This document shows, in pieces, positions 5,949-10,616 of a stretch of DNA of 47,519 nucleotides (positions are counted from its first letter, which is position 1; the number at the start of each line of letters is the position of its first letter). This stretch comes from an uncultured bacterium (GTDB taxonomy: Bacteria; Verrucomicrobiota; Kiritimatiellia; RFP12; UBA1067). The stretch spans positions 1-47,519 of the forward strand of contig CACYNF010000007.1 in NCBI GenBank assembly GCA_902775595.1, read 5' to 3'. The notes under the pieces were generated by a model. It saw only the letters and a list, made by a program, of their open reading frames with translations, was not told the origin of the DNA and made no database searches. The position numbers were made by a program, and so were the translations under genes.

Positions 5949-8273
5949 ATGAAGAAGGCGTGGTTGATCATTGCAGGCGTACTCTTTGCGACTTGTGCGT
6001 TCGCGGGCGAGGCTCTCCCCGCGTCGGCGGCCGACTGGCCGACGAAGCTCGGCATGACGCCGAAGATGCTTTTCCTCGTCCTCCAGATAGGCATCATCAT
6101 CTTCGCCGCTAAGATCGGCGGGTCGCTGGCGACAGCGCTTAAGCTTCCAAGCGTTCTTGGCGAACTTGGCGCCGGCATACTTATCGGTCCGTGGGCGCTC
6201 GGCGGCTTCCCGATTCCCGGTTTCGACGGCATGTTCCAATACGGCATCTTCTACGGCAAGGCCCTGCGCGCCCAGGCCGCCGCGGGCGGGAATCCCTTCG
6301 CCGCGACGCCGGAGCTCTACGGTATCTGCACCATCGCGTCTGTCGTTTTGCTGTTCCTCTCAGGGCTTGAGACGAACCTCAAGATGTTCCTCAAGTACGC
6401 GTTCGCGGGTTCGCTCGTCGGAGTGGGCGGCGTAATCTTCTCCTTCGTGTTCGGCGACCTGTGCGCGGTCTACGCGACGACTCTCCTCCCCGACGTGCTG
6501 GGCGGCATCGAGTGCCTTGCCGAGCTCGGCGAGCTCGTGAGGCGCGGCGAGCTCGTGAAGGCGATCCTCTCGCCTGCCGCGATGTTCATGGGAATCATGT
6601 CGACCGCGACTTCGGTCGGCATCACCGCGCGCATCCTCTCCGAGAAAAAGAAGATGGACTCCGAGGAGGGCGTCACGATCATGGCCGGCGCGGTCATCGA
6701 CGACGTCCTGGGCATTATCGTGCTCGCGATAGGCATGGGCATCATCGCCTCCCAGAAGCCGAACCCCGAGACGGGCGCGGTCGCCCCGCTCTCGTGGCTC
6801 TCCATCGGCGCGACGGCCCTGAAGGCGTTCGGCGTCTGGCTCGTCGGAACCGCCGTGGGCGTTGCCCTCGCGCGGCGCATCTCGTGGCTCCTCAAGCTCT
6901 TCAGGGCCCCCGGCGCGATCGCGACGCTGGCGTTCGGACTCGCCCTCGTCATCGCCGGCGCGTTCGAGGCGCTGGGCCTCACGCTCATCATCGGCGCGTA
7001 CGTGATGGGCCTCGCGCTCTCCCGCACCGACATCAAGCACCTCGTGCAGGAGAACCTCGCGACTCTCTACACGTTCCTCGTGCCGATCTTCTTCTGCGTG
7101 ATGGGCATGATGGTCGACGTCTCGGCGCTCTGTTCGAAGCCCGTCCTGATCTTCGGCGGAATCTACACCGCGCTCGCCGTCCTCGCGAAGGTGCTCGGCT
7201 GCGCGATCCCCTCGCTCTTCTGCGGCTTCAACGTCCTCGGCGCCTTGCGCGTCGGCGCGGGGATGATCCCGCGCGGCGAGGTCGCGCTCATCATCGCCGG
7301 CATCGGCCTTTCGCAGGGCTACCTCACCCAGGAGGTCTTCGGCATCGGCATCCTCATGACGCTCGTCACGACGGTCGTCGCGCCGCCTGCGCTCGTCGGG
7401 CTCTTCCACCCGAAGGCTAAGGGCGTGCGCCACCCGAAGGCCGACGCCGACGGCGGCCGCGAAGTCGTCTTCGAGCTCGAGACGCGCGAAGTCGCCGAGC
7501 TCGTCGTCAACCGACTTGTCGAGGAGTTCCGCAAGGAGGGCTTTTTCGTCACGCTACTCTCGCAGGCCGACCACATCTGGGAGATCGCGATGGACGACAT
7601 CGACATGTCGATCCGTCGCATCGGCAAGAAGATTCGCTTCACCTGCACGAAGGCCGAGGAGACGATGGTCATGACGGCGTGGATGGAAGTCGCTTCGCAG
7701 ATGAACGACCTCGCGCGCGCGATCGCCAAGCCCATCCGCAAGGAGGACCTTGGCAAGATGATTGCGAAGAGTGAGCCGGCGAAGCGCGGCCACGAAGGCG
7801 TCGGCCGCTATCTCCAGGGCTTCGTCATGCTGCCGAAGTTCCGCGCCGCGTCGAAGAAGGAGGCGATCCAGAAGATGGTAGCCGAGATCGCGGCCGCATG
7901 CCCGAACCACGTGAAGAACACGGCCGAGGCGGTGGAGGCCGTCCTGAAGCGCGAGGAGTCGATGTCCACGGGCCTCGACCACGGCATTGCGGTTCCCCAC
8001 GGCCGTTGCCCGAGCGTCCACGGCATAGCGGGCGCCGTCGCGATAGTCGACAACATGGGAACGGCCAACGGCTGCATACCGGACTACGAGACGATCGACA
8101 ACTCGCCGCTCAGGATAATCGTGCTGACGCTCGCGAACGACGAGGCCCAGTCGCCGTATCTCAAGTTGATGAGCTACATCTCGCGCGCTCTCCGCGCCGA
8201 CAACGGCTACGCTCGCCTCGCCGAGTGCCGGACGCCGGACGAGATGCGCCGGTTCTTCAGGAACATCAAGTAG
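5949..8273 (+). CDS. CPA2-type cation/proton antiporter fused to a PTS EIIA domain
   Basis: The 774-residue protein has a cleavable-looking signal peptide (residues 1-19, ending TCAFAG) followed by about twelve membrane segments of the Na+/H+ exchanger family (roughly residues 35-490), with SVLGELGAGILIGP and GAVIDDVLGIIVLA as hallmark motifs. A soluble linker of about 130 residues leads to a C-terminal domain (residues about 620-774) that matches phosphotransferase-system EIIA of the fructose/mannitol type. It has HGIAVPHGRCP with the phosphorylatable histidine at His684. The arrangement suggests cation transport controlled by phosphorylation from the PTS chain or by carbon status; the control is inference. 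A TTG at 5928 would extend the ORF, but the ATG begins the signal peptide. AAAGGA at 5930-5935 is a possible ribosome site within a short repeat. Confidence 0.88.
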   Translation: MKKAWLIIAGVLFATCAFAGEALPASAADWPTKLGMTPKMLFLVLQIGIIIFAAKIGGSLATALKLPSVLGELGAGILIGPWALGGFPIPGFDGMFQYGIFYGKALRAQAAAGGNPFAATPELYGICTIASVVLLFLSGLETNLKMFLKYAFAGSLVGVGGVIFSFVFGDLCAVYATTLLPDVLGGIECLAELGELVRRGELVKAILSPAAMFMGIMSTATSVGITARILSEKKKMDSEEGVTIMAGAVIDDVLGIIVLAIGMGIIASQKPNPETGAVAPLSWLSIGATALKAFGVWLVGTAVGVALARRISWLLKLFRAPGAIATLAFGLALVIAGAFEALGLTLIIGAYVMGLALSRTDIKHLVQENLATLYTFLVPIFFCVMGMMVDVSALCSKPVLIFGGIYTALAVLAKVLGCAIPSLFCGFNVLGALRVGAGMIPRGEVALIIAGIGLSQGYLTQEVFGIGILMTLVTTVVAPPALVGLFHPKAKGVRHPKADADGGREVVFELETREVAELVVNRLVEEFRKEGFFVTLLSQADHIWEIAMDDIDMSIRRIGKKIRFTCTKAEETMVMTAWMEVASQMNDLARAIAKPIRKEDLGKMIAKSEPAKRGHEGVGRYLQGFVMLPKFRAASKKEAIQKMVAEIAAACPNHVKNTAEAVEAVLKREESMSTGLDHGIAVPHGRCPSVHGIAGAVAIVDNMGTANGCIPDYETIDNSPLRIIVLTLANDEAQSPYLKLMSYISRALRADNGYARLAECRTPDEMRRFFRNIK

Positions 8274-9221: not shown

Positions 9222-10616
9222 ATGGCATGTTCATGCGGCAAGGCAAAGTGCAAGTGCGGATCGGAGTTCTGGGCCCCGATTATGGCGCTCGCCGAAATCG
9301 AAAGCGGGCTCGGCGCGAAGAACGACGTCGTTGCGGTCGCGTGGGAGCGCGAGGACGGGAAGGTCTACCGCTACGACCTTGAGATCCCGAGGCGCCTGAG
9401 CCCCGAGGCGACCAAGTTCGTCTCGCATGTCGTCGACCGCATCGCGAAGTTCATCGTGTGGGCCGCGGGCGGATGGAAGCTCTATCTCGCCGGTCCCGAC
9501 GCAGTCGTCCAGCCCGTCGCGAAGGCGTACACGAAGAAGGGCTCCAGGAAGTTCGACTACGAGTTCTTCTCCGACCTCTACGGGCGCCCCGTCGAGACGG
9601 TCGTCCTTCCGCTCAGGAAGATGCCCGTGCAGAAGGAGACGCTCACGAAGGTGAAGACGGTCGCCGACGGCTGCCGCATCGGCTTCGACCTCGGCGCGAG
9701 CGACTTCAAGATCTCCGCGCTCAACAAGGGCAAGGTCGTGTTCTCCAAGGAGTTCCCGTGGGATCCGCGGAACAACGCCGATCCCGAGTACCACTACTCG
9801 AAGCTCACCGAGGGCCTCAAGGCGGCCGCGGCGACCCTGCCGCGCGTCGACGCGATCGGCGGCTCCACGGCCGGCACGCTCGTCGGCAAGAAGATGGGCG
9901 TTGCCTCGCTCTTCCGCGCCATCAAGGGGAAGAACCCGTCCAAGTACCCGATTGCGCAGGACATGTTCTTCCGCGTCGAGAAGGACTGGGGCGTTCCCTT
10001 CGAGATCTACAACGACGGCGACGTCTCGGCTCTCGCCGGAATGATCACGATGGGCAAGAAGGGCATCCTCGGCGTCGCGATGGGTTCCTCCGAAGCCGTC
10101 GGCTTCATCGACAAGTCCGGAGCGCTCACGGGCCGCATCACCGAGCTCGCGTTCGCCCCCGTCGACTTCAACCCCAAGGCGCCCGCGGACGAGTGGTCCG
10201 GTGACGCCGGCGTCGGCTCGATGGCGTTCTCGCAGCAGGCCGTCAACTGGCTCGCCGAGAAGTACGGCTTCAAGTTCCCGAAGACGATGAAGCTCCCCGA
10301 GCGCCTCAAGGTCGTGCAGGCCGCGATGGAGAAGGGCGACTCCAAGGCGCTCAAGGTCTACGTGCAGATCGGCCGATTCCTCGCGCACGCGATTCCGTGG
10401 TACAAGGAGTTCTACGACTACTCGAGCATGATGCTGCTCGGCCGCGTCACGAGCGGGCTCGGCGGCGACGTCATCCTCGAGACGGCGCGCGCGATGCTCA
10501 AGGACATCTACCCGGCGACCGCCGAGGAGATCGAGCTCATCGTTCCCGACGAGCACTTCCGCCGCCTCGGCCAGTCCGTAGCGGCCGCGCAGATCCCCGT
10601 CATCAAGAAGCGCTGA
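9222..10616 (+). CDS. ROK/ASKHA-fold sugar kinase-like protein with a cysteine-rich N terminus
   Basis: The 464-residue protein has a sugar-kinase fold with FDLGASDFKISAL (phosphate-1 loop, near residue 152), NDGDVSALAG (catalytic-Asp region as in ROK kinases) and GVAMGSSEAVGFID. An N-terminal domain of about 140 residues precedes the kinase core and begins MACSCGKAKCKCGSEF, with four cysteines in the first twelve residues that could bind a metal. The usual ROK zinc motif CxCGxxGC is absent from the core. The start follows AAAGGAG at a good distance. It is directly upstream of a NahK-like kinase (14 bases) and rpe, so it probably phosphorylates a hexose or hexosamine in the same catabolic route; substrate unknown. 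Confidence 0.7.
   Translation: MACSCGKAKCKCGSEFWAPIMALAEIESGLGAKNDVVAVAWEREDGKVYRYDLEIPRRLSPEATKFVSHVVDRIAKFIVWAAGGWKLYLAGPDAVVQPVAKAYTKKGSRKFDYEFFSDLYGRPVETVVLPLRKMPVQKETLTKVKTVADGCRIGFDLGASDFKISALNKGKVVFSKEFPWDPRNNADPEYHYSKLTEGLKAAAATLPRVDAIGGSTAGTLVGKKMGVASLFRAIKGKNPSKYPIAQDMFFRVEKDWGVPFEIYNDGDVSALAGMITMGKKGILGVAMGSSEAVGFIDKSGALTGRITELAFAPVDFNPKAPADEWSGDAGVGSMAFSQQAVNWLAEKYGFKFPKTMKLPERLKVVQAAMEKGDSKALKVYVQIGRFLAHAIPWYKEFYDYSSMMLLGRVTSGLGGDVILETARAMLKDIYPATAEEIELIVPDEHFRRLGQSVAAAQIPVIKKR

Follow-up and report, generated by a model that had tools for sequence, protein, structure and literature searches.

A candidate PTS-switched NapA-like antiporter: a predicted Na+/H+ exchanger joined to a type-2 EIIA domain in an uncultured Kiritimatiellia bacterium

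Why should an ion antiporter carry a domain of the phosphotransferase system (PTS)? This question is raised by a single gene in a stretch of 47,519 nucleotides (the window; contig C7) from an uncultured bacterium of the Kiritimatiellia, the draft genome of which comprises 3.15 Mb and is 86% complete. A first-pass annotation, made from the letters of the DNA, had read this gene as a CPA2 transporter with a signal peptide and about twelve helices followed by a type-2 EIIA domain. The reading favoured here, to which we assign a probability of roughly 0.7, is that of a NapA-type electrogenic Na+/H+ antiporter the activity of which would be set by a built-in PTS switch.

Antiporter and type-2 EIIA domain indeed lie in one open frame of 774 codons ending in a TAG stop (Table 1), with matches to Pfam Na_H_Exchanger (PF00999; residues 53-482, E 1.9e-43, far above the cut-off) and PTS_EIIA_2 (PF00359; residues 631-772, E 1.2e-18, 67.9 bits versus a cut-off of 27). 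Since the fusion is found in dozens of independently assembled genomes, it is no assembly chimaera. An AlphaFold2 model based on an 80-row alignment (best 80 of 133 matches) has a mean pLDDT of 86 and a pTM of 0.69, the placement of the domains relative to each other thus being uncertain in this model. A manual count on the model gives 13 membrane helices in place of about twelve, as many as NapA has. The signal peptide is probable, a hydrophobic N-terminus and a first model helix at residues 2-14 being its whole basis. With the N-terminus taken to be outside and the N-terminal stretch left out of the count, 17 lysine and arginine residues fall into inside loops versus 6 into outside loops, and the C-terminus is therefore assigned to the cytosol, which would put the EIIA domain where HPr could reach it. 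The earlier reading had overlooked a third part, namely a separately folded domain at about residues 504-593 (MID) between antiporter and EIIA.

Table 1. Coordinates of the fusion gene and its features in the window
Feature	Position	Strand	Basis
Antiporter-MID-EIIA fusion gene, 774 aa	5949..8273	+	Open frame; PF00999 and PF00359; AlphaFold2 mean pLDDT 86
Probable signal peptide, residues 1-20	5949..6008	+	Hydrophobic N-terminus, model helix 2-14; boundary is a guess
13-helix membrane domain, NapA fold, residues 36-485	6054..7403	+	Model helices; NapA structure and sequence matches
ATSV, residues 220-223 of the unwound helix, motif positions 1-4 (ion selectivity)	6606..6617	+	CPA motif (available part of PMC6181914) and NapA alignment
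Asp251-Asp252, predicted ion/proton-binding pair, motif positions 6-7	6699..6704	+	Aligned to the NapA DD
Lys414, motif position 8	7188..7190	+	Aligned to the NapA Lys
MID, residues 504-593, b-a-b-b-b-b-a	7458..7727	+	Solo fold; fused and two-gene forms
Type-2 EIIA domain, residues 618-772	7800..8264	+	PF00359 631-772; start from model; PtsN structures by sequence
His684, codon CAC, predicted phospho-acceptor	7998..8000	+	Within GIAVPHG; alignment column

With respect to the membrane domain, the closest solved relative by sequence is NapA of Thermus thermophilus (4bwz, E 1.4e-35), and NapA is also the best structural match in a Foldseek search (5bz2; E 1.2e-18, TM 0.87 normalised by target length). 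KefC matches less well than NapA (E 3.2e-10 versus 1.2e-18; TM normalised by query 0.41 versus 0.45; identity 18% versus 32%), this comparison being made by E-value and query-normalised TM, as the target-normalised TM penalises the longer KefC chain. The domain accordingly belongs to CPA2 with a NapA-like Na_H_Exchanger fold, in agreement with the family named in the first-pass annotation; the NCBIfam CPA2 model TIGR00932 gives 113.5 bits and stays under its cut-off of 238.3. Alignments with the solved NapA chains, which are 385-394 residues long, stay inside residues 45-485 of the fusion protein, NapA having neither MID nor EIIA.

According to the available part of PMC6181914, an eight-position motif discriminates between CPA types, where two aspartates at positions 6-7 together with a lysine at position 8 denote electrogenic exchange, and Kef-type K+ transporters of the CPA2 family have LSST in the unwound helix with the threonine at position 4. 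Positions 1-4 of the fusion protein were assigned by hand from this motif in combination with the NapA alignment, and position 5, counted in the sequence, is Gly247. In the 80 alignment rows (best 80 of 133), the four residues of ATSV are kept in 78, 78, 79 and 79 rows, respectively, Asp251 in 78, Asp252 in 79 and Lys414 in all 80. The Kef-type LSST with its threonine at position 4 is absent, its place being taken by ATSV with valine in 79 of these best 80 of 133 rows, and the CPA1 signature of YcgO, a glutamate at position 5 and an arginine at position 8, is likewise absent, with Gly247 and Lys414 in these positions. Fold and ATSV-DD-K are common to the fusion protein and NapA, the lysine of which aligned to Lys414 we take to be K305. 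From these residues electrogenic Na+/H+ exchange is predicted, as in NapA and unlike the K+-selective Kef proteins; selectivity rules of this kind, read from sequence, fall short of proof.

The same positions bear on an alternative according to which EIIA acts like PtsN, by protein contact only, on a K+/H+ exchanger, the fusion thus being a PtsN-YcgO system for potassium in cis. It would be in line with the PtsN targets TrkA, KdpD and YcgO, which are potassium systems throughout (PMC13104625, as far as available), and with PtsN being nearest to the EIIA domain among solved structures by sequence. However, YcgO is a CPA1 protein and the fusion a CPA2 protein with glycine at position 5 and lysine at position 8, and ATSV-DD corresponds to NapA and not to the LSST of Kef proteins as given in the accessible text of PMC6181914. 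The better structural match to NapA than to KefC points in the same direction, and potassium exchange is therefore regarded as quite improbable.

The EIIA domain is assigned to the type-2 class from its sequence, PF00359 scoring above its cut-off and the active-site histidine being in place. This histidine, retained as the first-pass annotation had claimed, is His684 in GIAVPHG, which by counting along the alignment corresponds to position 73 in the IIA-Ntr structure 1a6j of E. coli, presumably the phosphorylation site of that protein. The available parts of PMC6282199 and PMC11808508 yielded no passage on H73. A loss of the histidine in orthologues is not seen, as in the 80-row alignment (best 80 of 133) all 73 rows possessing the column have histidine, across six phyla. 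The remaining seven rows comprise three which stop before the EIIA domain, these being matches that reach the end of the available DNA, and four two-gene forms in which the separate EIIA retains the PH motif. The nearest solved structures by sequence are PtsN proteins (1a6j, 3urr, 4gqx and 2a0j), but because the NCBIfam PtsN equivalog model TIGR01419 gives 47.6 bits, below its cut-off of 138.7, the domain is no PtsN by this test.

A functionless relic might be suspected from the conservation of the EIIA domain, which is below that of the membrane part (the most frequent residue of a column has an average share of 0.57 versus 0.72; best 80 of 133). Drift, however, would not leave His684, Arg668 and Glu669 each invariant across phyla in all 73 rows that possess the column (best 80 of 133), and there is hardly any reason to favour a relic.

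MID, when folded alone, reaches a pLDDT of about 95 across most of its first 90 residues, and it is found in fused and two-gene antiporters alike. A Pfam scan of 47 members gave no consistent family but scattered weak matches, the strongest of which (E 0.0008) comes from one member; in a search of the MID sequence profile against the PDB, Pcc1 scored E 0.0014 with no stretch passing alone and all others had E-values of at least 0.29, and Foldseek returned no structure at E 0.001 or better. Of the many candidates for its identity offered by VIA-align 2, among them phosphoglucomutase, METTL16, KA1 domains and BamC, none was accepted, since these unrelated folds are tied at Z 8 to 9.7; the tie is taken to reflect a widespread alpha/beta arrangement, and MID is left unnamed. 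It is likely to be the transducer between EIIA and the antiporter.

As regards its distribution, relatives of the fusion protein were found in six phyla (best 80 of 133), the search for the 79 loci of the alignment having been seeded with window-protein peptides, of which one lies inside EIIA. In a phylum sample of 145 genomes with a completeness of at least 85, a MID+EIIA profile finds the fused protein in at least 32 genomes. A MID-only profile gives a complete list of 46 matches in 43 of the 145 genomes, of which 35 lie in long frames fused to EIIA, all of them also among the listed MID+EIIA matches, and 11 in frames of 547-615 residues. An EIIA gene is situated directly upstream on the same strand in eight of these 11 and not in three. 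EIIA is therefore found in the same protein or the adjoining gene for 43 of the 46 MID antiporters, a count in which antiporters without EIIA may be under-detected since the MID profile was built from loci with EIIA fused or adjacent. Because three of the 46 have no adjacent EIIA, the antiporter can exist without a linked switch; among the matches listed, at least two of the three genomes concerned have a strong stand-alone EIIA elsewhere, either on another contig (G038) or at a distance of about 9 kb on the contig of the antiporter itself (G056).

The two-gene form was also found in Fermentibacteria, Eisenbacteria and Aminicenantes, the distinct two-gene loci amounting to 11 (L081, L082, L086 and eight from the phylum survey), with L085 and L095 belonging to one genome that is counted once. 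Fusion in one lineage and adjacency in another is a classical sign of physical interaction. As MID remains with the antiporter in both forms, and as 43 of the 46 have a linked EIIA, the EIIA domain is read as a switch. In a tree of 62 antiporter-MID sequences taken from the 80-row alignment (quick method with SH-aLRT only, unrooted, rows more than 80% identical to a kept row or shorter than 480 residues having been dropped), fused and unfused forms are separated by one branch with a support of 100, and a single fusion or fission therefore suffices. In view of this single change on the tree, repeated independent fusion was rejected as evidence.

Upstream of the EIIA gene there is a fructose-1,6-bisphosphatase-like gene in L082 from Eisenbacteria (by Pfam) and in L081 from Fermentibacteria (by eye), and such a neighbour of the EIIA-antiporter pair would fit a carbon-flux signal. 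Among 32 stand-alone EIIA loci, picked for a strong EIIA match, eight have an intact MID antiporter adjacent, one has a remnant (L098) and 23 have neither, from which it follows that stand-alone EIIA of a similar kind has other partners. The profile of the fusion EIIA scores equally well at loci of either kind, giving 141 to 163 bits (best per locus) where an intact antiporter is lacking (24 loci) versus 151 to 166 bits at the antiporter-adjacent ones. In L098 (2966-3870) an intact EIIA gene is followed by the antiporter remnant, the first 103 aligned residues of which are spread across three frames; since EIIA is intact and the antiporter only fragmentary, EIIA has outlived its neighbour. Paired, divergent stand-alone EIIA genes occur in L103 (3283-4442) and L113 (3101-4263), an antiporter being absent from the stretch fetched in either case.

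Whether the genome holds the proteins of a PTS relay had been raised in the first-pass annotation, and an absence of EI and HPr is not borne out: hprK, HPr and EI, as identified by Pfam, are adjacent in a row on contig C6, with lptB-like and hpf-like genes (named by eye) upstream. The HPr protein contains the motifs MHVRPAG and GKSIM, which we take to be the customary His and Ser sites. A permease with PF02378 (EIIC) was not found in the 86%-complete genome, a negative result that covers PF02378 alone; the PTS here therefore looks regulatory. The EIIA domains of the genome are located on four separate contigs, none of them stand-alone inside the hprK-HPr-EI cluster, and besides the fusion there are three further EIIA_2 proteins, all with the active-site histidine but with differing attachments. 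Several EIIA proteins in a genome without a PF02378 permease suggest that the relay is not only regulatory but also has multiple outputs, of which the antiporter would be one.

The first of these further proteins (L089; G000:C148, 2494-6273) is a stand-alone EIIA with YGIAIPHG, behind the gene of which come an Hpt gene and a gene for a histidine kinase/receiver protein with a long N-terminal part that is amino-acid-permease-like by eye and without a Pfam match; it is possible that the PTS meets a two-component phosphorelay at this locus. In the second (L090; G000:C55, 5685-6836), EIIA with FPHVRG comes after a C4 zinc ribbon scoring just under the Pfam cut-off, and similar FPHVRG EIIAs adjoin stand-alone EIIAs in L099, L107 and L109. 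The third (L088; G000:C12, 5616-6443, minus strand) has LH replacing PH, with the histidine in place by profile alignment, and the unassigned part ahead of its EIIA domain is, by eye, similar to a small DNA-binding domain.

These three proteins also matter for the view that the EIIA domain of the fusion is no switch but acts, tethered to the membrane, as a buffer or donor of phosphate, which it would receive from HPr and hand on, or else as a sensor reporting the state of the antiporter to the relay, as with their active-site histidines they could share a phosphate pool with it. Tandem EIIA domains after MID, both with the PH motif, in L125 (795-3545) and L126 (818-3619) could be read in the same way. 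Such a role is nevertheless considered unlikely, given that no EIIC was found with PF02378 as a phosphate recipient and that MID stays on the antiporter when EIIA is separate, as would fit an effector domain.

In the phylum sample, HPr and EI are present in 43 of the 43 genomes with the MID module, in contrast to the PF02378 permease with 2 of 43; the 41 genomes without PF02378 include the source genome. Co-occurrence with EI was rejected as functional evidence because it is uninformative against a background of 144 EI-containing genomes out of 145. The more distant loci stem from 29 genomes, all of which have EI (one of them, L085, having been counted already), compared to 7 of 14 well-known control genomes taken as a yardstick.

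The nearest relatives of the window protein, six in number with 90-92% protein identity (among the best 80 of 133), include Kiritimatiellae (L009) and Lentisphaerae (L011), and the RUG isolate names amongst them presumably point to the rumen. The source bacterium is probably from an animal gut. The window neighbours clpX and panD both adjoin the antiporter in six of the 79 loci (L008-L011, L019 and L039; best 80 of 133), a neighbourhood that was rejected as evidence since only close relatives at 90-92% identity share both genes. Downstream genes recurring in loci from Kiritimatiellae are mnmE-like or dnaA/dnaN-like by eye. In the window, positions 9222-10616 encode a 464-residue protein with a cysteine-rich start and no Pfam match, which has a metalloenzyme-superfamily gene on one side and an APH-family kinase on the other; upstream of the antiporter, relatives of this gene are found either directly (L023 and L046) or about 1 kb away (L016, L022 and L041).

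At the level of sequence, therefore, a three-part protein with intact transport residues and an intact EIIA histidine is encoded together with genes for EI, HPr and HPr kinase. In the PTS-switched antiporter proposed here, phosphate would be passed from PEP via EI and HPr to His684, and EIIA, in its unphosphorylated or its phosphorylated state, would dock on MID and thereby change the antiporter. Phosphorylation might in this way set cation/proton flux with carbon supply as the signal, as we infer in common with the first-pass annotation. Somewhat more probable than the reverse, by analogy with PtsN and YcgO, seems a direction in which unphosphorylated EIIA inhibits the antiporter and phosphorylation, at high PEP and low glycolytic flux, releases it. 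HPr kinase could add a second signal, phosphorylation of HPr at serine slowing the transfer of phosphate to EIIA.

In E. coli, the K+/H+ antiporter YcgO is bound and inhibited by PtsN in the unphosphorylated state, control being exerted via the cytosolic C-terminal region of the antiporter; the physiological reason for the inhibition is stated to be unclear (available part of PMC11808508). This system has in common with the fusion a type-2 EIIA and a cation/proton antiporter, control having been shown for PtsN and being conjectural here, but it consists of two proteins with a CPA1 antiporter for K+ carrying putative RCK and CorC domains, in contrast to one CPA2 protein with MID and with Na+ as the predicted ion. 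A further parallel is provided by streptococci and lactobacilli, the secondary transporter LacS of which has an EIIA-like domain fused to it that is phosphorylated by HPr; a 2023 review, in the portion accessible to us, calls LacS the sole example of regulation by direct phosphorylation among bacterial transporters (PMC10710835). The fusion of a secondary transporter with EIIA is shared, as judged here from sequence; in LacS, however, the transporter carries sugar and the fused domain is EIIA-Glc-like, whereas the present protein is a cation antiporter, not expected to have a sugar substrate, with an EIIA of type 2 (Fru/Ntr). PTS proteins including EIIA-Ntr but no PTS permease are described for Brucella (PMC2937029) and for PTS-Ntr (PMC13104625), in either case in the text at hand. 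With these regulatory systems the source genome shares the presence of EIIA and the lack of a permease (PF02378 in our case), but its hprK-HPr-EI cluster does not include a stand-alone EIIA gene.

A possible studied relative is BB0447 of Borrelia, which is considered an antiporter or proton/cation exchanger (parts of PMC4985143 and PMC5626856); the available text of the former does not contain the term PTS, and that of PMC5333916 does not mention BB0447. An antiporter is likewise not mentioned in the accessible parts of PMC3162934 and PMC2405797. In the literature searched, which mostly excludes subscription journals, neither a paper nor an experiment on EIIA joined to a cation antiporter was found. 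Such fusions are presumably catalogued as a domain architecture in protein databases, and the existence of the fusion is therefore probably already known, its reading being new. In fact, the antiporter and EIIA halves are each known, and what is new is their combination with MID, a CPA2 antiporter of the Na+ type and a permease-less PTS.

With EIIA and antiporter in one polypeptide or gene pair, a link between PEP and ion balance becomes testable with one purified protein, and genomes with EI and HPr but without PF02378 (41 of 43 module genomes) would gain a concrete output of the relay. For a gut bacterium it may be conjectured that sodium/proton circuits are matched to fermentative flux in this way. 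More tentatively, and with somewhat less than even confidence, the Na+/H+ antiporter might be a main output of a permease-less PTS across several phyla, the PEP level directly setting the sodium and proton circuits of the membrane via MID as a dedicated receptor domain for EIIA. Next to LacS this would be a second bacterial transporter under the control of direct phosphorylation, and the first such ion antiporter.
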